From Aequorivita xiaoshiensis (lineage in GTDB: Bacteria > Bacteroidota > Bacteroidia > Flavobacteriales > Flavobacteriaceae): a DNA stretch of 64,000 bases. A program made the translations under genes and the position numbers. Positions 435 to 39,151 of this stretch are shown one piece after another (the stretch's first letter is position 1; every line of letters begins with the position of its first letter). The stretch spans positions 1 to 64,000 of the forward strand of contig NZ_JAIRBB010000008.1 in NCBI RefSeq assembly GCF_022008395.1, given 5' to 3'. Below the pieces are notes generated by a model, which saw only the letters and a program-made list of their open reading frames with translations, ran no database searches and had not been told where the DNA came from.

Positions 435-1325
435 ATGACAAAACATAAAGCCGGATTCGTAAATATAATAGGAAACCCTAACGTGGGCAAAAGTACATTA
501 ATGAACGCTTTTGTAGGCGAGCGACTTTCAATTATTACTTCTAAAGCGCAAACCACCCGTCACCGTATTTTAGGAATTGTAAACGGGGATAATTTTCAAG
601 TGCTATTGAGCGATACCCCAGGGATTATAAAACCTGCTTATCAGTTGCAGGAAAGTATGATGGACTTCGTTAAATCTGCTTTTGAAGATGCCGACGTATT
701 ACTGTATTTGGTAGAATTAGGGGAAAAGGAGCTTAAAGATGAAGCTTTCTTTAATAAGATTAAAAACGCCAAGATTCCCGTATTACTTCTTATAAACAAA
801 ATCGACCAAGGTAATGAAGAGCTGCTTACGGAAGCCCTTCAACTATGGCAAGAAAAAGTGCCAAATGCCGAAATTTTTGCTATTTCAGCCCTTCAGAATT
901 TTGGAGTTCCTGAAGTATTTAATCGAATCATCGAATTATTACCCGAATCGCCAGCTTTCTATCCAAAAGATCAACTAACAGATAAGCCTGAACGCTTTTT
1001 CGTAAACGAAGCGATTCGCGAGAAAATATTGATTCACTATAAAAAGGAAATTCCATATTCAGTAGAAATTGATACAGAAGAGTTTTTTGAAGATGACAAC
1101 ATAATCCGAATTCGAAGTGTGATTATGGTTGAACGGGAAACTCAAAAAGGAATTATTATTGGTCATAAAGGTTCGGCCTTAAAACGTGTGGGAATAGAAG
1201 CAAGAAAGGATCTGGAGAAATTCTTCGGAAAACAAATTCACCTTGAATTATATGTGAAAGTGAATAAAAATTGGCGTAGCGACGAGCGACAATTACGCCG
1301 TTTTGGATATAATAACAAGCAATGA
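435..1325 (+). CDS. era: GTPase Era
   Basis: Era is a membrane-associated GTPase that binds the 3' end of 16S rRNA and helps 30S maturation. The 296-residue product has the G1 loop GNPNVGKS at residues 13-20, G3 DTPG at 61-64 and G4 NKID at 121-124. A C-terminal KH domain includes the GHKGSALKRVG loop. The length is normal for the family (about 300). Its stop overlaps the start of the next gene (ATGA at 1322-1325), so the two are probably translationally coupled. Confidence 0.97.
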   Translation: MTKHKAGFVNIIGNPNVGKSTLMNAFVGERLSIITSKAQTTRHRILGIVNGDNFQVLLSDTPGIIKPAYQLQESMMDFVKSAFEDADVLLYLVELGEKELKDEAFFNKIKNAKIPVLLLINKIDQGNEELLTEALQLWQEKVPNAEIFAISALQNFGVPEVFNRIIELLPESPAFYPKDQLTDKPERFFVNEAIREKILIHYKKEIPYSVEIDTEEFFEDDNIIRIRSVIMVERETQKGIIIGHKGSALKRVGIEARKDLEKFFGKQIHLELYVKVNKNWRSDERQLRRFGYNNKQ

Positions 1326-2110
1326 TTTATGTAATTCTCTTTATTGCATTAGTGGCGTTTGCGGTTTATGCTTTTACACAAAACAAAAAACGTCCAGTTA
1401 AGCCTTTTCCTGAGGAATGGAAACCGCTTTTGAAGGAGAATGTACTATTTTACAGAAATCTTTCTGAATCTGAACAACAAAGGTTTCGCGAGCGAATGAT
1501 GCTTTTTTTAAGCGAAGTTTACATTGAAGCCATTAATACAGATTTAGAGGAATTGGATAAAGTGCTAATTGCCGCAAGTTCTGTAATTCCTGTTTTTGGT
1601 TTTAAAGAATGGCATTACAACAATTTAAGCGGGATTATTCTTTACCCAGATAACTTCAACAACGAACTTGTGTTTGAAACTAATGGTGAAAAGCGTATTA
1701 TCGCAGGCCTTGTTGGTTCGGGAAGATTTGAAAAACAAATGATTCTTTCTAAAAAAGCACTGTATCACGGTTTTGAGAATGAAACTGATAAAGGAAATAC
1801 ATCAGTTCACGAATTTGTTCACCTTATCGATAAAATGGATGGGGAAGCAGATGGGGTGCCTGAGCGACTATTGCAACAACAATATATTACTCCTTGGTTG
1901 AAATTAATGCACGAGGAAATGGAAGCCATAAACAATAATAAATCTGATATCCGTGCATATGGCGGAACTAGTGAAGTAGAATTCTTAGCTGTAGCTTCAG
2001 AATATTTTTTTGAGCGACCAGCACTTTTTAAAAGAAAACATCCTGAACTTTATGAAATGCTAGAAAAATGTTTTCAGCAAAATCCAGCGAAGAAAAAGTC
2101 TAAAAAGTGA
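1322..2110 (+). CDS. MtfA-like zinc peptidase (M90 family)
   Basis: The 262-residue product has one N-terminal membrane segment (about residues 2-19) and a cytoplasmic domain with the zinc motif HEFVHLIDKMDGEADG starting at residue 163. This matches the HExxH...DG-ADG pattern of the MtfA/M90 family. E. coli MtfA is a metallopeptidase linked to the Mlc repressor, but Mlc is not expected in this phylum, so the substrate here is unknown. The N-terminal anchor resembles the flavobacterial form of the family. It overlaps era by 4 nt and probably shares its transcript. Confidence 0.8.
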   Translation: MIYVILFIALVAFAVYAFTQNKKRPVKPFPEEWKPLLKENVLFYRNLSESEQQRFRERMMLFLSEVYIEAINTDLEELDKVLIAASSVIPVFGFKEWHYNNLSGIILYPDNFNNELVFETNGEKRIIAGLVGSGRFEKQMILSKKALYHGFENETDKGNTSVHEFVHLIDKMDGEADGVPERLLQQQYITPWLKLMHEEMEAINNNKSDIRAYGGTSEVEFLAVASEYFFERPALFKRKHPELYEMLEKCFQQNPAKKKSKK

Positions 2111-2155
2111 AACTAAAAAAATGTTTCTATTTACTAGGAAAGGAATATTGGTCTC

Positions 2156-2647
2156 TTATTTAGAATTTAAAACTTCATACATAAAGTCATACAGTTTTCG
2201 CATTCCCGGCTTTCCTTTTTTCTTTCCTATACTTCCAGCTAAATAGAGCAAGAACCAAATAATTACCAATGCTACCGCTATTCCGATTTGAAGCGTTATA
2301 GGGTTTCCTAAATTATGGTTGGAGTAAAGCCAGATTAAATCTACCATAAACAATATGGCTACTACTACGTGAAAAAACATGAACATAGTCCATACCGTTG
2401 GATTTGGTCCAAAGAAACCGTGAAGGGTGCTAGTATTTTCAAATTCAGAAATTTCTAAATGAAGTTGTGGAGACCAAAAATGCTGCTCGTTTTTTGGGAG
2501 TTTTATGAAAATATGATCGTCTATACAAGATATATGAAACCGCTCTTGTGCATTTTTTGCTTCAGAAAATTTGCCAAGTATTATTGAGTGCGGTTGTTCT
2601 AACTCGATTTTAAACCGCGGTCTTAAAACTATTTCATTCGGAAGCAT
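2156..2647 (-). CDS. Hypothetical membrane protein, two TM helices
   Basis: The family is not recognised. The 163-residue product has a soluble N-terminal half of about 80 residues, two hydrophobic helices at about 85-108 and 117-140, and a basic cytoplasmic-looking tail (GKKKGKPGMRKLYDF). There is no signal peptide or lipobox. It is convergent with the MtfA-like gene and divergent from der. The N-terminal half holds paired hydrophobic and charged stretches as in a small beta domain, but no motif allows a functional call. Confidence 0.6.
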   Translation of the reverse strand: MLPNEIVLRPRFKIELEQPHSIILGKFSEAKNAQERFHISCIDDHIFIKLPKNEQHFWSPQLHLEISEFENTSTLHGFFGPNPTVWTMFMFFHVVVAILFMVDLIWLYSNHNLGNPITLQIGIAVALVIIWFLLYLAGSIGKKKGKPGMRKLYDFMYEVLNSK

Positions 2648-2865
2648 AATTCACTCTTGTGCGTTTAATAAATATATGGGAGATTCAGTATTCTATAAAC
2701 CTAATTTTAAACCTGAAAGTTATCTGATTCTTGAGGCGAAAATAAGTTGTAAAACCCTTTTAACCCTCATCTTAAGTGTTACAGTTTTTCATGATTTTAA
2801 AATATCAAATAGTAACTATTTTTTTATAAGCGGTTAAAATAGTATTTTTTGTGCGAACTAAAACC

Positions 2866-2873
2866 TATTTTTG
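2866..2873 (+). promoter_or_regulatory. Candidate -7 element for der
   Basis: TATTTTTG fits TAnnTTTG and lies 18 nt before the chosen der ATG. A TTTTTTG at 2845-2851 is only 14 bp upstream, closer than the usual -33 spacing. Confidence 0.5.
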
Positions 2874-2891
2874 CACCCTAAATTTAAGATT

Positions 2892-4196
2892 ATGAGCATT
2901 GTTGCCATAGTGGGGAGACCAAATGTTGGGAAATCCACTTTTTTTAACAGATTAATTCAGCGTAGAGAGGCTATAGTTGATGCTGTGAGCGGTGTTACTC
3001 GCGACCGTCATTATGGAAAGAGCGATTGGAATGGAAAAGAGTTTTCGCTAATAGACACTGGAGGTTATGTAAAAGGGAGCGACGATATTTTTGAAGCTGA
3101 AATTGATAAACAAGTAGAATTAGCAATAGATGAAGCCGATGCAATTATCTTTATGGTAGATGTTGAAAGTGGCGTTACAGGTATGGATCAAGAAGTTGCA
3201 AAACTACTGAGACGATCTAAAAAACCTATTTTTCTAGCTATAAATAAAGTAGATGGGGCGTCTAGGGTAAATGCCGCACTAGAATTCTATTCCTTAGGGT
3301 TTGAACATCAATACAATCTATCTAGTATAAATGGAAGTGGTACGGGAGACCTTTTAGATGATCTTGTAAAAGCGCTGCCAGACACAGAGGAGCGTGATGA
3401 TAGTGAATTACCACGGTTTGCTGTTGTGGGTCGCCCGAATGCTGGGAAGTCGTCGTTTATTAATGCTCTTATTGGGGAAGATAGGTATATTGTAACAGAT
3501 ATTGCAGGTACTACTCGCGATAGTATTGATACCAAATACAACCGTTTTGGATTTGAATTTAACCTAGTTGATACTGCGGGAATTCGTAAGAAGAGTAAGG
3601 TAAAAGAAGACTTAGAGTTTTATTCTGTAATGCGAAGTGTTCGTGCAATCGAGCATTGCGATGTTATTATTCTTGTTTTTGATGCCACAAGAGGATTTGA
3701 CGGACAAGTTGAAAACATCTTTTGGTTAGCACAGCGAAATAATAAAGGAATTGTGATTCTTGCTAACAAATGGGATTTAGTTGAAGATAAAGACACAAGT
3801 AGCGTTAAAGATTACGAAAAGTATATCCGTCAGCAAATAGAACCTTTTGTAGATGTGCCGATTGTGTTTATTTCAGTACTTACAAAACAACGAATTTACA
3901 AGGCTATTGAAACAGCTGTTGAGGTTTACAATAACCGAAGTAAAAAAATTAAAACTAGCGAGCTAAACGAGGTGATGCTGCCGATAATTCAGAATTATCC
4001 ACCACCAGCATATAAAGCAAAATATGTAAAAATTAAGTTCTGTATGCAATTGCCTACTCCATATCCTAGTTTTGTTTTCTTCTGTAATCTACCGCAGTAT
4101 GTAAAAGATCCTTACAAGCGCTTTATAGAAAATAAACTTCGAGAAAACTTCGACTTTAATGGAGTTCCGATTACTATTTATTTCAGAAAGAAATAA
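2892..4196 (+). CDS. der: Ribosome biogenesis GTPase Der (EngA)
   Basis: Der is a double-GTPase protein needed for 50S subunit assembly. From the ATG at 2892 the product is 434 residues. The first G domain has GRPNVGKS at 8-15 and the second GRPNAGKS at 180-187. Each is followed by DTGG/DTAG and NKxD motifs, and a KH-like C-terminal domain closes the protein. An ATG 21 nt upstream adds only MHPKFKI before the conserved start and overlaps the -7 element, so 2892 is preferred. A strong terminator follows. Confidence 0.97.
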
Positions 4197-4224
4197 TATT
4201 CCTTATATAAAGAAATCAATTACT

Positions 4225-4264
4225 AATAAAGGTTTGCTTAAGAAGAGTGAACCTTTATTTTTTT
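4225..4264 (+). terminator. Intrinsic terminator of der
   Basis: A perfect 10-bp stem AATAAAGGTT / AACCTTTATT (4225-4234, 4250-4259) is followed by seven T. It overlaps the 3' end of the convergent YczE-like gene, whose stop is in the loop. Confidence 0.85.
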
Positions 4265-4894
4265 ATCTAGCTTTAATCGCAAACGACTGAAAAACTTAAG
4301 AGAAAATTGAAAAATAGGGCTTAATAGGAAGGTGTAAATAAAAGTCACCCAAAAAACAGGTCCTCCTAAAAAATACCCTATAACTAGTACTATACTTTCT
4401 ACCAAAATTCTAGCTTTACTAATAGACCATCGCAAGCGCTCAGATATTGATAACATAAAGCCGTCGCGCGGTCCTGCGCCTACTCCCCCAGAAACGTATA
4501 AACCGCCTCCTATTCCTATAAGCACAATCCCAACAAACAGAATTAAATAATCGGTCCAAGTGTTACTTGCGTTAGGTAAAATATCTAGCCATAAAAAGAA
4601 ATCCATTATGGGGCCAATTAACAAGGCATTTAAAAATGTACCGATGTTTACGTATTTTTTGCTAACTACTAGTGAAACTCCAATTAAAGCTAAACCTACA
4701 ATAATACTCCAAGTTCCAATAGTTAGTCCAAGTTGATCGTAAAGGGCTACGTTTAAGACATCCCAAGGGTGTAAACCTAAGTACTGAACTTTGATTGAAA
4801 AAGCAGCGCCAAGACCAAAGCATACTAAACCGCTAAAGTAAAAAATATAGCGGATGATATTTTGTGAGAGAGTAGCTTTAGGTTGTTCTTTCAT
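4238..4894 (-). CDS. YczE/YyaS/YitT-type integral membrane protein
   Basis: The 218-residue product has about five hydrophobic helices. Its motifs are typical of the YczE-like group: a GLHPWDVLN segment in the first third and VSGGVGAGPRDGFM near the middle. The latter repeats the G-GPRDG pattern known from Bacillus YczE homologues. The molecular function of the family is not established; transport or regulation of secondary metabolism has been suggested. The C-terminus is basic. The gene stands alone, convergent with der, and its last codons share the der terminator hairpin. Confidence 0.75.
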   Translation of the reverse strand: MKEQPKATLSQNIIRYIFYFSGLVCFGLGAAFSIKVQYLGLHPWDVLNVALYDQLGLTIGTWSIIVGLALIGVSLVVSKKYVNIGTFLNALLIGPIMDFFLWLDILPNASNTWTDYLILFVGIVLIGIGGGLYVSGGVGAGPRDGFMLSISERLRWSISKARILVESIVLVIGYFLGGPVFWVTFIYTFLLSPIFQFSLKFFSRLRLKLDKKIKVHSS

Positions 4895-33422: not shown

Positions 33423-33442
33423 TATACGTCAATTGCCTTATT
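33423..33442 (+). promoter_or_regulatory. Shared operator-like motif, site A (before the DUF6252 gene)
   Basis: Matches AATACGKCAAWTGCCYTATT at 19 of 20 positions. The first base of its core (33428) is 36 bp upstream of a -7-like CAATTTTG at 33464. A 22-bp block including it is repeated exactly at site B. Confidence 0.65.
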
Positions 33443-33518
33443 GATATGAATTTCTTTTAGATGCAATTTTGTTTTTATAATAATTAAACTTCCAAATAGG
33501 AAATTAAAACCGAAAATT

Positions 33519-34043
33519 ATGAAAACATTCAACAAGATTTTTTTAGTCTTAATGTCAGTGCTAGCATTAAGTTTAACCTCTTGCAGCAAGGACGACGATG
33601 GGGGGCAAGACCCAACGGGTGGAACAGGAACTTTTAAAGCCAAAGTAGATGGAGAATCTTTTAACTCCCTAAACGGAACTGTTGTCGGAGAGATTACTCA
33701 ATCTGGTCCAACTAAAGCTTTTGTCATTAGTGCAGGTACTTCCGACTCGGAAAATTTACAAATGGTAATCACAACTTTTGATGGGGTGGGAACCTACGAT
33801 CTAAATTTCACCAATATAGGTACGTATAGTTATTTGCCAGACCCAATTAACCCAGACCCTAATACGGTTGTCATTTATACTACTGGTAACGGGCAGCCTA
33901 CAAATGGCGAAATTAAAGTTTCAAGTTTTGAAAATAACATTGCTAAGGGGACCTTTAGTTTCACAGCCTACAATCTAGATAATCTATCGCAATCTGTTTC
34001 TGTTACAGAGGGCGAGTTTAACATTGAAATGACCGTAAACTAG
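33519..34043 (+). CDS. DUF6252-like lipoprotein
   Basis: The 174-residue product is a lipoprotein (lipobox LTSC, Cys22) with an acidic linker (SKDDDGGQDPTGG) and a small beta-rich domain beginning FKAKVDGESFNS and ending EGEFNIEMTVN. This pattern fits the DUF6252 group, a Bacteroidota-specific surface or periplasmic domain without a known function. It carries site A of the shared motif upstream and a good terminator downstream, so it forms its own unit, probably under the neighbouring response regulator. Confidence 0.75.
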   Translation: MKTFNKIFLVLMSVLALSLTSCSKDDDGGQDPTGGTGTFKAKVDGESFNSLNGTVVGEITQSGPTKAFVISAGTSDSENLQMVITTFDGVGTYDLNFTNIGTYSYLPDPINPDPNTVVIYTTGNGQPTNGEIKVSSFENNIAKGTFSFTAYNLDNLSQSVSVTEGEFNIEMTVN

Positions 34044-34069
34044 GGTGTTATAGAGCATATTATCAGATT

Positions 34070-34109
34070 AAACCGATTTCAAGACGCAGGTTTTGTATTC
34101 GGTTTTTTT
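34070..34109 (+). terminator. Intrinsic terminator of the DUF6252 lipoprotein gene
   Basis: The stem AAACCGA / TCGGTTT (34070-34076, 34099-34105) is followed by a run of seven T (34103-34109). Confidence 0.75.
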
Positions 34110-34160
34110 ATTAAACTACTTGCGCTGGATAACGTACTCTATAATTATTTCTTACTTAGT

Positions 34161-34180
34161 AATACGTCAATTGCCTTATT
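34161..34180 (+). promoter_or_regulatory. Shared operator-like motif, site B (before the beta-propeller gene)
   Basis: Full match to AATACGKCAAWTGCCYTATT. Its core start (34166) lies 36 bp before a -7-like CATATTTG at 34202, and 56 nt separate the motif's 3' end from the ATG. Confidence 0.7.
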
Positions 34181-34235
34181 GATTTTACCCTCAGACGTGA
34201 TCATATTTGAATCATAAACTAATAACCAAAATATT

Positions 34236-36104
34236 ATGAAGACCTCAAGAAAATGTTACATGCTTTATGCCATTTTGTTCTTAACGTTAAACACTGGTAT
34301 TGCGCAAAGGGCGGAGCAACCTGATTTTAGATATGATACAGGTGCCAAGATAAATGATATGATATTAACTCAAGGAGGAACAATGGTTGTTGCTACTAAT
34401 AATGGTTTAGTGGGGATTAAGCCAGGTAGCAACCAACTGTTGTTTAATTTTACCGAATACGGACGTGTAAAACCCGAGGAACTTACTTTTGTGCCAAATG
34501 CGCCATACGTTATAGTTGCGCAAGGTGGGTTCGCTAATTTAACTGCAAAGAAATCAGTTATCGATTATATGTCTGGACAAGTACTTTTTAATACCGAAAG
34601 TAATGGTTGGAAAGTTGCTTATAGTTGTGAAGTGAAAATGCCACAGAACAAATTAGTGGTTACAGGGCAACGCCGATCAGATGAAAAATATGCAACTGCT
34701 GTGGCTGTTTATGATTTAAATAGTGGAAAGGAGGATTATCGTTTTAATCTCGGTGAACCTGGAAAAGTTTCTGTGGGTGCAGGAATGCAACCGAGCGGAT
34801 CTGTTTTATTGTTGAAAGATTACCTTATTGTTCCAACAACTAAAGGGTTATTGGCAAAAAAAGCACAGACAGGTGAAACTCTTTGGCAGAATGATATGAA
34901 GAATATAAATTGGATGGTAGCTGATGCTGCTGAGAACGAAATATATGCATTCGAAAGTGTAAATCAGGGTAAAAACACCCGAATTCATAAGGTGGGTGTA
35001 AATGGAACAGAACTTTGGAAAGATGATCATAAGGTAAAGGGGCAAGTAGTAAATTTTGAAATCCTACCAAACGGAATAGCAGTAGTTAGCAATCAAAGTG
35101 ACGGGGGGAATAACAGCATATTTGCAACGAAAAACGAATCCAATATTGCATTTTTAAGTGCTGTAAATGGGGAAGATCTTTGGGATAAAGCACCCAAAAC
35201 CAAAGGCTATGTACAGCACTTTTATGTAATGGAAGACGGTATTCTCTTCGGAATTTACCAAGGGGGTATCAATAAGATTTCATTTGATGGAGAAACGCTT
35301 TTTAAAAAACCATTAAAGACGGGAGAAAATATTTTAACTATGGCGCATACCCCACAGGGCTTGATCTATATTACTTCGGAAGACGCCAATATTGTAAATC
35401 TGGAAAATGGTGAGCAGGTTTGGCAAAAACCGCTTAAATATAAAAGAGCAGGAGCGGTAAGTTCAACTCTCGACAAAAGGAACAATCGCTATTTAATTAG
35501 CGCAGATGAAACTTTGTACGCTGTAGATGCAACCTCTGGTGATGTTAGCATTTTGGTCGAAACTAATTTTGAAGGCAAGGAAGATCCTTCACACGTTGAG
35601 ATTCGTGATGGCGGTATTTTATTAACCAGCGATCAAAATATGCAATTAGTAGATTGGGATGGCGAAAAGCAATGGCACGAATATTATCGCGCACCTGGTA
35701 AAAGTGCCATGGGTGCAGTTTTAGCTGGGGTTGCAGCCGTAGCTACGGCTACGACGGCTGTAGCTGCTGCAAATTCGTCCATGCAGAACAAGCTTGCAGG
35801 ATATGATGAAAAATCTGAAAGCGATGCAAGATTGGCAGGAGCAATGGCTGCTGCAAGTGGCGCTTCGGTTGCAGAAATGTTGAAACGGTTTAAAGCTACC
35901 GCTGCAACCAGAAACGACCAATTTATACTTACTAAACTTGACGATGGTGTTGGCTTGGTGAAAGTTAATAGAGATACTGGTGCTAAAGAAAAAGAAATTG
36001 TATTAAAGGATAAGCAGCCGGAATATATAGTGGATGAAATAGGTGGTTTGCTGTATTATAAAGCAGATAATAATTCAATTTTCGCATACGATCTTAAAAA
36101 GTAA
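34236..36104 (+). CDS. PQQ-like beta-propeller repeat protein, secreted
   Basis: The 622-residue product has a signal peptide (MKTSRKCYMLYAILFLTLNT, cleavage near GIAQ) and repeated blades such as GETLWQNDMKN, GTELWKDDHK, GEDLWDKAPK and GEQVWQKPLK. These are the tryptophan-docking repeats of PQQ-like propellers. No quinoprotein active-site residues are evident, so it is probably a binding or scaffold protein in the periplasm. About residues 492-560 form an unusual Ala-rich insert (GAVLAGVAAVATATTAV ... KRFKATAATRND) that breaks the repeat pattern. It lies between two motif sites and next to the sensor kinase, so it may belong to the same regulon. Confidence 0.82.
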   Translation: MKTSRKCYMLYAILFLTLNTGIAQRAEQPDFRYDTGAKINDMILTQGGTMVVATNNGLVGIKPGSNQLLFNFTEYGRVKPEELTFVPNAPYVIVAQGGFANLTAKKSVIDYMSGQVLFNTESNGWKVAYSCEVKMPQNKLVVTGQRRSDEKYATAVAVYDLNSGKEDYRFNLGEPGKVSVGAGMQPSGSVLLLKDYLIVPTTKGLLAKKAQTGETLWQNDMKNINWMVADAAENEIYAFESVNQGKNTRIHKVGVNGTELWKDDHKVKGQVVNFEILPNGIAVVSNQSDGGNNSIFATKNESNIAFLSAVNGEDLWDKAPKTKGYVQHFYVMEDGILFGIYQGGINKISFDGETLFKKPLKTGENILTMAHTPQGLIYITSEDANIVNLENGEQVWQKPLKYKRAGAVSSTLDKRNNRYLISADETLYAVDATSGDVSILVETNFEGKEDPSHVEIRDGGILLTSDQNMQLVDWDGEKQWHEYYRAPGKSAMGAVLAGVAAVATATTAVAAANSSMQNKLAGYDEKSESDARLAGAMAAASGASVAEMLKRFKATAATRNDQFILTKLDDGVGLVKVNRDTGAKEKEIVLKDKQPEYIVDEIGGLLYYKADNNSIFAYDLKK

Positions 36105-36161
36105 ACGGAATCAAAAACTTTTTTTAACCACGGACGAGGTGAGGAGCGTTCAAGGTTTTGA

Positions 36162-36185
36162 AACCCCATGGGAATCCATGGGGTT
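36162..36185 (+). terminator. Hairpin after the beta-propeller gene
   Basis: A perfect 10-bp stem AACCCCATGG / CCATGGGGTT (36162-36171, 36176-36185) with a GAAT loop is strong and G/C-rich. It is followed only by TAAATTATTTT, so termination is plausible but not certain. Confidence 0.5.
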
Positions 36186-36205
36186 AAATTATTTTGAACA
36201 TGGCA

Positions 36206-36225
36206 AATAAGGCAGATGCCCTATA
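36206..36225 (+). promoter_or_regulatory. Shared operator-like motif, site C (before the sensor kinase unit)
   Basis: Matches AATACGKCAAWTGCCYTATT at 17 of 20 positions. Its core (GGCAGATGCC, 36211-36220) lies 36 bp before TATCTTTA at 36247. An ATG at 36216 lies inside the motif and is therefore unlikely as a start. Confidence 0.6.
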
Positions 36226-36269
36226 CGTTTGATTCAAAAGAAGATATATCTTTATTTATTAAAAGTCCT

Positions 36270-36524
36270 ATGGAAATAGATTTTACAATTCTTTTTATTG
36301 CCATTCTTACCCTAATTATTTCAGGAATGTTATGGTGGCACTATATTGTTCGCAAAATGGCTATGCAAATACATTCACAAATTAAGGAGAAAATAAATAT
36401 AGCTATTAAGCAACATAGTAACCAACTTGATTTTCGGGCAAAAAAATTGGATAATTATAATTTTTTAATTCATAATTTAGAGCAGGCTTTAATTATTCAG
36501 CCCGAAATAACTTTAAAAATATGA
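36270..36524 (+). CDS. Small membrane protein before the sensor kinase
   Basis: The 84-residue product, counted from the ATG at 36270, has one N-terminal helix (ILFIAILTLIISGMLWWHYI) and a charged, helical C-terminal half (IHSQIKEKINIAIKQHSNQL) that may form a coiled coil. The family is not recognised. An in-frame ATG at 36216 would place the start inside the motif, so I use 36270. Its TGA overlaps the ATG of the kinase by 4 nt (ATGA), so the two are coupled. It could be an accessory of the sensor. Confidence 0.6.
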   Translation: MEIDFTILFIAILTLIISGMLWWHYIVRKMAMQIHSQIKEKINIAIKQHSNQLDFRAKKLDNYNFLIHNLEQALIIQPEITLKI

Positions 36525-38422
36525 TTAGATTTTTATTTTGCTTTGTATGTATAATATTTATTGAAGCTAACTTATTTGCGCAACCAAAAAAAATCGATAG
36601 TCTTAACCATTATGCTGTCTCAATCTATAAACAATCCCCTCAGGAGGCTGTAAAGATTTTAAATCAAGCATTACGATTAGCCCAAGATGGTATGTATATT
36701 CCTGAAATAGCAAAAACTAAAAATAATCTTGGAATTGTACAGCGAGATTTGGGGGCTTTGGAACTAGCGATGTCATTGTCTAAAGAGGCTTTCGAAGCTA
36801 GCCCAGATTCTCTCGTGAGAGCTTCGGCACAAAACAACTTAGGGGTAATAAATAGAAAACTGGGCAATTACGAAGACGCTCTTGAAAACTATATTTATGC
36901 CGATAGAATATACGAAAAGATGGGCTTAGAAAAAGAGCAGGCCACGGTGAATAATAATATAGGGATGGTCTATAGCATGTTACAAATGAATGAAAAAGCC
37001 GTAGAATATCACGAAAAAGCGCTTACATTTTTCAAAAAAATTGCTGACAAAAAAGGTATTTCAGAAGCAAAAAACAATATAGCGATTATCCATGCATCTG
37101 AAGGTCGATTCGAAGAGGCGCTTTTATATTTTAAACAATCTTTTGCGATTGAGAAATCCTTGGATGATAAAAAAGGAATGGCTGAATCGGTCAACAATAT
37201 TGGGGGTGCCTATTATTACCTTGGAAGGATAGATTCTGCGGTACATTACTTTAAAAAATCTGCAATGATTGAAAAATCCATCGGTAATTTTTCGGGAGTA
37301 AGTGCTAGTTATAACAATATTGTTCAAGTTTTGCTTGACAAAAATGAATTGAACGAGATTGAGGTTTATTTGGATTCGGCCTATCAATTCGCGAGACAAA
37401 GTCAAACCGCCGAGGACATTGAGATGTCCCTGCTAAATTATTCAGATTACTATGCAGCTAAAAAAGAAATTGGACCATCCTTTGAATATTATAAAAAATA
37501 TGTAGCCTTTAAGGATAGTGTTTTAGGTAAATCCAATATGGAGACGTTGCAAGAAATGGAGGTAAAATATGATACCGAAAAAAAGCAAAATGAAATTCTA
37601 CAACAACGTGCCCAACTAGCAGAAAAGGAAATGGAGGTACGCCGAAAAAATACTTTTATTTTCGGCAGTCTCGGCCTAGTTTTGGTTCTCGGGCTGCTGG
37701 GCTATTTACTCTATAATCAGCAGAAACTTAAAAACCACCAACTTCAAAAGGAAAGTGAGTTAAAAACGGCTTTGGCAAAAATTGAAACCCAGAATAAACT
37801 GCAAGAACAGCGTTTGCGTATTTCTCGAGACCTTCACGACAATATTGGAGCACAGCTCACTTTCATCATATCTAGTATTGACAACCTAAAATTCGGCTTT
37901 ACAGATATTGGTGAAAAACTTGGCAACAAACTTAGCGCTATTAGCGTCTTTACCTCCCAGACCATTTATGAACTCCGCGATACCATTTGGGCGATGAACA
38001 AAGAGAGAATAACTTTTGAGGATTTACAAGCGCGAATAGCAAACTTTATTGAGCAAGCAAAAAACGCATCGGAAAATACCGAGTTCTCATTTAACATTGA
38101 AGAAAGTGTTGACGAAACACATGTGTTCTCGTCTGTTGAAGGAATGAATATTTACAGAATTATTCAAGAGGCGGTAAACAATTCATTGAAATATGCTCTT
38201 GCCGACGAAATCGAGGTAAATATTTCAAAAGAAGGTGAGCAGTACCAAATTGAGATTGCCGATAACGGCAAAGGATTTAATCTCGAGACAATCGATATGG
38301 GCAACGGCCTTAATAATATGAAAAAACGCGCCCGGGAGATTGATGGTACACTTGAAGTTCAAACCTCTAAAAATGGAACTTCTATTTTGCTGAGGTTGGC
38401 AAAACCATTTACAGAAGGATAA
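36521..38422 (+). CDS. TPR sensor histidine kinase (HisKA_3 type)
   Basis: The 633-residue product has a signal peptide (MIRFLFCFVCIIFIEANLFA) and about seven tetratricopeptide repeats up to about residue 330 (for example NNLGVINRKLGNYEDALENY and NNIAIIHASEGRFEEALLYF). A membrane helix follows at ~377-398, then a HisKA_3 phospho-acceptor region with RDLHDNIGAQLT (His439) and a HATPase_c domain with the N-box NNSLKYA and the G motifs DNGKGFN and GNGLNNM. The TPRs should face the periplasm and sense a protein or peptide signal. It is followed by the response regulator, its obvious partner. The LuxR/NarL pairing fits the HisKA_3 class. Confidence 0.93.
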   Translation: MIRFLFCFVCIIFIEANLFAQPKKIDSLNHYAVSIYKQSPQEAVKILNQALRLAQDGMYIPEIAKTKNNLGIVQRDLGALELAMSLSKEAFEASPDSLVRASAQNNLGVINRKLGNYEDALENYIYADRIYEKMGLEKEQATVNNNIGMVYSMLQMNEKAVEYHEKALTFFKKIADKKGISEAKNNIAIIHASEGRFEEALLYFKQSFAIEKSLDDKKGMAESVNNIGGAYYYLGRIDSAVHYFKKSAMIEKSIGNFSGVSASYNNIVQVLLDKNELNEIEVYLDSAYQFARQSQTAEDIEMSLLNYSDYYAAKKEIGPSFEYYKKYVAFKDSVLGKSNMETLQEMEVKYDTEKKQNEILQQRAQLAEKEMEVRRKNTFIFGSLGLVLVLGLLGYLLYNQQKLKNHQLQKESELKTALAKIETQNKLQEQRLRISRDLHDNIGAQLTFIISSIDNLKFGFTDIGEKLGNKLSAISVFTSQTIYELRDTIWAMNKERITFEDLQARIANFIEQAKNASENTEFSFNIEESVDETHVFSSVEGMNIYRIIQEAVNNSLKYALADEIEVNISKEGEQYQIEIADNGKGFNLETIDMGNGLNNMKKRAREIDGTLEVQTSKNGTSILLRLAKPFTEG

Positions 38423-38425
38423 ATT

Positions 38426-38445
38426 AATACGGCAAATGCCCTATT
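38426..38445 (+). promoter_or_regulatory. Shared operator-like motif, site D (before the response regulator)
   Basis: Full match to AATACGKCAAWTGCCYTATT with the perfect palindromic ends GGCA-AA-TGCC (38431-38440). A -7-like TATCTTTA lies at 38476 (45 bp downstream of the core start). At exactly 36 bp there is only TAAATTCA (38467). It would give autoregulation of the regulator. Confidence 0.65.
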
Positions 38446-38503
38446 TTACGGTTGTCTTTTTTGAGCTAAATTCATTATCTTTAAACGACTAACCGAAAAT
38501 AAA

Positions 38504-39151
38504 ATGTTGAAACTCGCTATTGTTGACGATAACTCCTTCCTTATTCATGCCATAAAGGAAAAATTATCTTTTTTTGAAGATGTTTCGGTAAAGCACACCT
38601 CGTTAAATGGCAGTGAGCTGCTTACAAAACTACAGGAAAACCACAATCTCGATTTAATATTGATGGATATTGAAATGCCTGTTTTAAACGGTATAGAGAC
38701 CACCCAAATGGTAAAGCAGAAATATCCGCATATCAAAATAATTATGCTAACTGCCTTTGACAATGACGAACATATTTTCAACGCTATAAAAGCAGGTGCC
38801 GATGGATATTTGCTGAAAGAAATTAACCCCAAAGATTTATACGAAGGTATTTTTGAAACACTAAATGGAGGTGCAGCTATGACTCCTTCTATAGCTATGA
38901 AAACTCTAAAACTACTTCGAAATCCTATCGATATTCAAAACCTAAGAGATAAAGAACAAATCTCCCTGTCCGCACGTGAGGTTGAGGTTTTAGATCAATT
39001 AAGTAAGGGTTTGACTTATACTGTAATTGCAGAGCATCTTTTTTTATCGCCTAGCACTGTGCGAAAACATATTGAAAATATCTACAAAAAACTTCAGGTA
39101 CACAGTAAGATTGAAGCTGTTCAAAAAGCGAGAAACCACAATATTATTTAA
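38504..39151 (+). CDS. LuxR/NarL-type response regulator
   Basis: The 215-residue product has a receiver domain with the acidic pocket D8-D9, the phospho-acceptor Asp55 (LILMDIEMP), Thr83 and Lys105, and a C-terminal LuxR HTH (LSAREVEVLDQLSKGLTYTV, SPSTVRKHIENIYKKL). It is transcribed after the kinase and has its own motif site. It probably binds the shared motif and controls the four units nearby, including itself. This DNA target is inferred from the motif, not demonstrated. Confidence 0.94.
   Translation: MLKLAIVDDNSFLIHAIKEKLSFFEDVSVKHTSLNGSELLTKLQENHNLDLILMDIEMPVLNGIETTQMVKQKYPHIKIIMLTAFDNDEHIFNAIKAGADGYLLKEINPKDLYEGIFETLNGGAAMTPSIAMKTLKLLRNPIDIQNLRDKEQISLSAREVEVLDQLSKGLTYTVIAEHLFLSPSTVRKHIENIYKKLQVHSKIEAVQKARNHNII

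Follow-up and report, generated by a model that had tools for sequence, protein, structure and literature searches.

Within a 64,000-nucleotide stretch of the Aequorivita xiaoshiensis genome (positions 1 to 64,000 of contig NZ_JAIRBB010000008.1, hereafter the window), four copies of a palindromic motif precede genes of a locus that encodes a TPR sensor kinase and a NarL/LuxR-type response regulator. The four sites are read here as operators of this neighbouring regulator, through which it would activate its own gene, the kinase and exported proteins, a reading given a probability of roughly 0.88. The palindrome very probably marks where the regulator switches on its own small gene set. A previous sequence-only reading of the window had proposed that the LuxR-type regulator binds the sites and controls itself, its kinase and two surface or periplasmic proteins, and this proposal is supported by conservation, by spacing and by co-occurrence across 199 genomes. 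To our knowledge, the operators of only a few Bacteroidota transcription factors have been described, and few regulons of this phylum are readable from sequence. The putative operators and their -7-like boxes, with predicted transcription starts, are the following.

33423..33442, + strand: operator A, TATACGTCAATTGCCTTATT, preceding the lipoprotein gene, with box CAATTTTG 31 bp after its centre
33464..33471, + strand: -7-like box A, CAATTTTG, predicted transcription start about 33476
34161..34180, + strand: operator B, AATACGTCAATTGCCTTATT, preceding the beta-propeller gene, spacing 31
34202..34209, + strand: -7-like box B, CATATTTG, predicted transcription start about 34214
36206..36225, + strand: operator C, AATAAGGCAGATGCCCTATA, preceding the unit of small membrane protein and kinase, spacing 31
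36247..36254, + strand: -7-like box C, TATCTTTA, predicted transcription start about 36259
38426..38445, + strand: operator D, AATACGGCAAATGCCCTATT, preceding the response regulator gene, spacing 40
38476..38483, + strand: -7-like box D, TATCTTTA, predicted transcription start about 38488

The sites at 33423, 34161, 36206 and 38426 were recovered as first described, with 19, 20, 17 and 20 matches of 20 to the original consensus. A search of the window with that consensus gave six matches, two of them reverse-strand readings of palindromes (shuffled sequences: mean 0.09, largest 2). The palindromic core GGCA-NN-TGCC is present in sites C and D as claimed, and the left half in sites A and B is GTCA. 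A better description of the motif is the palindrome TANGNCANNTGNCNTA, a 16-base core whose architecture is a degenerate 7-2-7 inverted repeat, TACGGCA-NN-TGCCGTA. The distance reported from core start to -7-like box also stands, being exactly 36 bp for the boxes at 33464, 34202 and 36247; at site D the box lies at 45 bp (38476), and the sequence at the 36-bp position is poor (TAAATTCA). Boxes A and B are weak, with the form CAnnTTTG.

Genome-wide scatter of the motif and its absence near orthologous regulators had been named as outcomes that would speak against the proposal; neither was found. Throughout the 3,063,149 bases and 83 contigs of the genome, AATANGNCANNTGNCNTATT at up to one mismatch occurs only at the four window sites. 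At up to three mismatches the count is near background (256, vs 224 for the reversed pattern). The original consensus gives only three-mismatch matches elsewhere in the genome (n=5; reversed-pattern control, 4 forward and 3 reverse). Sites A and B are identical at 19 of the 20 motif bases and at three bases beyond, and this shared 22-base stretch might be taken for a recent promoter duplication, or a repeat element, of no regulatory meaning. However, the flanks of A and B otherwise differ, sites C and D differ from both yet keep the palindrome, no other copies at zero or one mismatch exist in the genome, and the arrangement recurs in diverged loci. A duplication or repeat of this kind is vanishingly improbable and was rejected, being refuted by that conservation.

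Conservation was followed in the best 80 of 544 confirmed loci of relatives. The 16-base core occurs 140 times in these loci (141 counting one at a contig edge), while 60 permuted palindromes of the same letters occur 1.1 times on average and at most seven times. Since the loci are related by descent, the counts on the 140 sites do not represent independent events. For 136 of the 140, a gene in the same direction starts within 250 nt. The targets of these 136 comprise the lipoprotein (37), the regulator (32), the small membrane protein (16), the beta-propeller protein (11), the kinase (8) and other genes (32), and 25 of the 32 others start like signal-peptide, membrane or lipoproteins by a crude rule and our own count. 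A flanking GSCFA or M28 peptidase gene is never the labelled target among the 136 sites. A site of this first form or of a second form, described below, is present in 79 of the 80 loci, L064 being the sole locus with neither.

The distance from site to promoter is fixed as well. The -7 pattern used was [TC]AnnTTT[GA], widened from TAnnTTTR after C had been seen in first place at sites A and B. With the wide pattern the box starts exactly 31 bp past the centre in 105 of the 140 sites, the next commonest spacings being 41 (n=6) and 40 (n=5); the narrow pattern TAnnTTTR gives spacing 31 in 38 of 140. Spacing 31 is the commonest in every target class (lipoprotein 32/37, beta-propeller 11/11, regulator 19/32, small protein 12/15, kinase 5/8, others 26/37), and in 200 shuffles per class the largest count at any one position was three. 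The constant distance of about 36 bp from core start, for which a search in relatives had been suggested, holds in 105 of the 140 first-form sites. In the regulator promoters of loci L011 to L014, boxes are found at both 31 and 40. The -7 box of sigma-A promoters in Flavobacterium psychrophilum, TAnnTTTG, lies at -12 to -5 (PMC9723704). Because of this position and the 31-bp spacing, the operator centre is placed at -43.5, a value predicted from the box; an activator position near -43 had been suggested earlier.

The same regulator could act at the same sites as a repressor, the dimer at -43.5 blocking RNA polymerase and phosphorylation relieving or setting the block. Autoregulation is often negative, and a -33 box, were there one, would fall in a region that the sites overlap, both of which would suit such a block. 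Against it, the site covers neither the -7 box nor the start and is placed further upstream, and 105 of 140 sites keep the spacing to the exact base, as polymerase contact would require. Moreover, no conserved -33 sequence beyond the motif was seen in the 38 narrow-pattern sites at spacing 31, and boxes A and B are weak. Repression is accordingly considered unlikely; activation would fit these observations better.

The motif also travels with the regulator. Within the genus, the regulator is present in 28 of 28 genomes and so is the motif at up to one mismatch, with at least 182 sites in total vs 17 for the reversed pattern, a total that includes matches not taken for operators. In the sample of 199 family genomes, 54 bear the regulator (homologue at E 1e-75) and 32 have an exact first-form site. 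Seven of these 32, with TATG in one or both halves, were left out of the co-occurrence count once they had been noticed; about 1% of locus sites have T as the fifth base of the 20. Without the TATG class, the first form is present in 24 of 54 genomes with the regulator and in 1 of 145 without (Fisher p 5e-15); with that class kept, the figures are 26/54 and 6/145 (p 2e-12). The second form, ATACGNAATTCNTCGTAT, is present in 22 of the 199 (reversed control 0), of which 21 have the regulator and one does not. By hand count, and with TATG set aside, either form is found in 44 of the 54 regulator-bearing genomes and in 1 of the 145 others. The exception, G064, has a 53% homologue (E 1.7e-69) on the contig that also carries its second-form site, and its first-form site is flanked by lipoprotein and beta-propeller homologues.

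The two forms appear to go with different classes of the regulator's recognition helix. In the 80 loci, TACG-N8-CGTA occurs 102 times at spacer 8, including first-form sites with TACG on both sides, while any other spacer between 0 and 19 gives 2 to 14 occurrences. With SPST at the start of the recognition helix, 37 of 42 loci keep the inner CA in 90% or more of their half-sites, compared with 7 of 37 for other helices. With HSK after the helix, the third base of the half-site is relaxed in 33 of 34 loci, compared with 5 of 45 for HNK. Judged from these sequences, the dialect TANGGCA-NN-TGCCNTA would be used mainly with the SPST helix and TACGYAATTCRTCGTA mainly with the SxGT helix, and the association of operator form with helix class is suggestive. 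A broader claim seems moderately probable, namely that an undescribed two-component regulon of exported proteins, one that activates itself, is widespread in Flavobacteriaceae, with two operator dialects that changed with the regulator and a first form that kept its centre at -43.5.

In some other species, sites are also found ahead of unlinked genes for exported or membrane proteins. The distal sample comprised 20 fetched stretches and L116 to L118, and in it the sites with a box at 31 precede a 298-residue exported protein (L102, L104) and a 125-residue membrane protein (L109), with L117 and L118 in addition. Near-matches within a gene that by eye is fabG-like, from six Aequorivita genomes (L096, L097, L099, L101, L103, L107), lie in coding sequence with no -7-like box at 31 and were rejected. 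Sites in L095, L098, L100, L105 and L108, between a gene that by eye is phosphate-transporter-like and a 258-residue exported protein, likewise have no box at 31 and were not counted as operators; that exported protein gave no match in the A. xiaoshiensis genome in a search made without a control, which makes this a weak negative. The sites of L106 and L110, from two Aequorivita genomes, precede a papain-like cysteine protease and have no clear box at 31. In L106 (positions 993-4541) the protease, with DUF4384, adjoins a WD40-like protein, and another exported protein is also preceded by a site; in L110 the operator-like site at position 2510 precedes the protease next to a WD40-like protein.

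Outside the family, an order sample of 196 genomes (40 of the same family, including the A. xiaoshiensis genome itself) has AATACGNCANNTGNCGTATT exactly in six, all of other families. In four of these (G257, G299, G401, G321) the fetched stretch contains homologues of the kinase and of the regulator, in one of them of the beta-propeller as well, and G270 has a 49% homologue elsewhere. The sixth, G246, is taken up next.

Several of the results weigh against the operator reading or its extension. Site D stands off the common spacing, at 40, nearly one helical turn further upstream. The A. xiaoshiensis genome has 13 further places at two mismatches to AATANGNCANNTGNCNTATT among the matches listed. 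Ten of the 54 regulator-bearing genomes have no exact match of either form. Only 5 of the 23 distal sites have a box at 31, even with G also allowed in first place, which implies that not every match is an operator. Two exact sites are present in G246, where no homologue of the regulator was found at E 1e-40. When placed on a tree from which the GerE domain had been left out, the helix changes amount to 4 to 6 independent pairs, one of them on well-supported branches; since independent pairs of helix and operator are so few, a sign test is unable to reach significance. The two G246 sites, C7:19521 and C85:6028 (L123, L124), have on the reverse strand at 31 the sequences CAACTTTG and GAACTTTG, both -7-like, the second with G first.

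Sites without the regulator, as in G246, would be expected if another, unlinked regulator bound the palindrome and the response regulator were no more than a target among others; co-occurrence is evidence of linkage and not of contact. The presence of a sister palindrome, TATGACA-NN-TGTCATA, near hemA-like and AraC-type genes in two Aequorivita genomes suggests that similar palindromes may serve other regulators. Yet the motif keeps company with this regulator from genus to genus, it is built like a NarL-family site, and the operator form varies with the recognition helix of this very regulator. An unlinked binder is for these reasons regarded as highly unlikely. The sister palindrome, AATATGACANNTGTCATATT, is found at L113 position 2482 (G007) and L114 position 2489 (G012), between what by eye are a hemA-like gene and a divergent AraC-type regulator, and similar sites occur in other genera (G057, G121, G139, G180). 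The TATG sites in the distal stretches have no -7-like box at 31, and the palindrome is possibly an operator of the adjacent AraC-type regulator.

If the sites are operators of the linked regulator, control of the locus could proceed as follows. The kinase would sense the state of the envelope and phosphorylate the regulator, whose GerE-domain dimer would bind the 7-2-7 palindrome centred at about -43.5 or, at the regulator's own promoter, at about -52.5, almost a full helical turn further upstream. The bound dimer would assist RNA polymerase, often where the -7 box of the promoter is weak. The phosphorylated regulator would raise its own expression and that of the small membrane protein with the kinase and of the two exported proteins, with positive feedback on regulator and kinase. 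In this scheme envelope state as the signal is a supposition, as is what the exported proteins do. The genes concerned are the following.

33519..34043, + strand: lipoprotein of the Riean_0653 family (NCBIfam NF052634), 174 residues
34236..36104, + strand: PQQ_2/BamB-like beta-propeller protein, 622 residues, with a signal-peptide-like start
36270..36524, + strand: small membrane protein, 84 residues, no Pfam match
36521..38422, + strand: sensor kinase with TPR repeats, HisKA_3 and HATPase, a signal-peptide-like start and one hydrophobic span
38504..39151, + strand: response regulator with receiver and GerE (LuxR/NarL) domains, 215 residues

The regulator has the domain order of the NarL/FixJ (LuxR-type) class, a receiver (Response_reg, 88.2 bits, cut-off 30.2) followed by a GerE helix-turn-helix (63.5 bits, cut-off 23.5), and that of A. 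sinensis (L010) is 100% identical to it. The kinase combines HisKA_3 (35.2 bits, cut-off 24), HATPase_c (45.4, cut-off 26.4) and TPR_12 (136.2, cut-off 30.1), as TPR sensor kinases do. Its N terminus is signal-peptide-like and a single hydrophobic span lies near residue 380, both read from the sequence with no predictor, so the TPR part is probably periplasmic. L013, L034, L039, L041 and L042, among others, have two TPR kinase homologues (tblastn) and one regulator, and more than one sensor may therefore feed one regulon.

Site C overlaps the first ATG (36216) of the small-membrane-protein reading frame, and the start is likely the later ATG at 36270; the end of the gene overlaps the kinase start (ATGA at 36521). 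Proteins of this family, about 78 to 84 residues with a conserved tail of roughly RxxxLxxYxFxxxNLxEALxxQ, precede the kinase or the regulator in relatives. A role as partner of the kinase is possible.

The lipoprotein scores 65.3 bits with NF052634, above the cut-off of 57. The DUF6252 label given to it earlier does not hold, with no such Pfam match at E up to 5; at that threshold the only Pfam match was DUF4972 (E 0.081), HMMER filters dropping most matches above about 0.1. Its structure model is almost all beta (mean predicted local distance difference test score, pLDDT, 85.5), and a fold search with the model gave no match at E up to 0.001. LpqH as a fold relative (E 0.0039, TM-score 0.38 by query) was too weak to use. 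Judging by the family name, the Riean_0653 gene presumably founded NF052634. Riemerella with transposon insertions in Riean_0653 shows reduced haemolysis, an effect that a plasmid copy of the gene reverses; in purified form, the protein itself is not haemolytic (PMC7881567).

The regulon appears largely readable from sequence, with operator, fixed -7 distance and target list in many genera, and could offer a route to functions for exported protein families of unknown role, that of Riean_0653 included. The specificity of the regulator and that of its operators appear to have changed in step; if true, this would be a natural experiment in which a NarL-family regulator shifts specificity along with its entire regulon.

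Among known systems, NarX/NarL of Escherichia coli shares the GerE-domain regulator and the inverted 7-base elements with a 2-bp gap, and the outer bases of the NarL consensus are TAC/GTA. Different here are the inner GGCA, the Bacteroidota -7 promoter, the TPR kinase and the exported-protein targets. NarL sites are 7-2-7 inverted repeats that act from near the -35 element, e.g. at -44.5; a single 7-2-7 close upstream of -35 suffices at yeaR, and ogt shows activity dependent on NarL/NarP when it has a single, improved site at -44.5 (PMC7419079). The window regulator aligns nearly full length with VraR and NarL, and it is because of this alignment, the 7-2-7 form and NarL activation near -44.5 that the sites are read as putative operators of an activator dimer. 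The NarL equivalog model gives the regulator 125.8 bits, below its cut-off of 250. Among solved structures, VraR comes closest to the regulator in sequence (E 1.5e-29), and the LiaS model matches the kinase at 65.3 bits, the cut-off being 450. LiaS/LiaR and VraS/VraR are envelope-stress systems and self-activating; they differ in being Gram-positive, in having no TPR domain and in their targets.

In Bacteroidota, F. psychrophilum sigma-A promoters have the same -7 box, by which the operator was placed, and the six motifs of that study are sigma-factor motifs, its main text naming neither a palindrome nor LuxR (PMC9723704). The FimS model is the second-best NCBIfam match of the kinase (84 bits), far below the equivalog cut-off of 600. 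FimR, the partner of FimS in Porphyromonas gingivalis, is of the LuxR type. It binds the mfa1 promoter region and acts as an activator, and the text of that paper makes no mention of a consensus, palindrome or binding site (PMC1974823). The target genes of FimS/FimR differ from those of the window system. In the open PubMed Central literature, among the papers listed and by title or abstract start, no paper was found on the operator, the fixed geometry, the regulon or the dialects. A kinase and LuxR-type regulator acting on surface-protein genes is a known kind of system, FimS/FimR being an example (PMC1974823), and it is the operator and the regulon that appear to be new.

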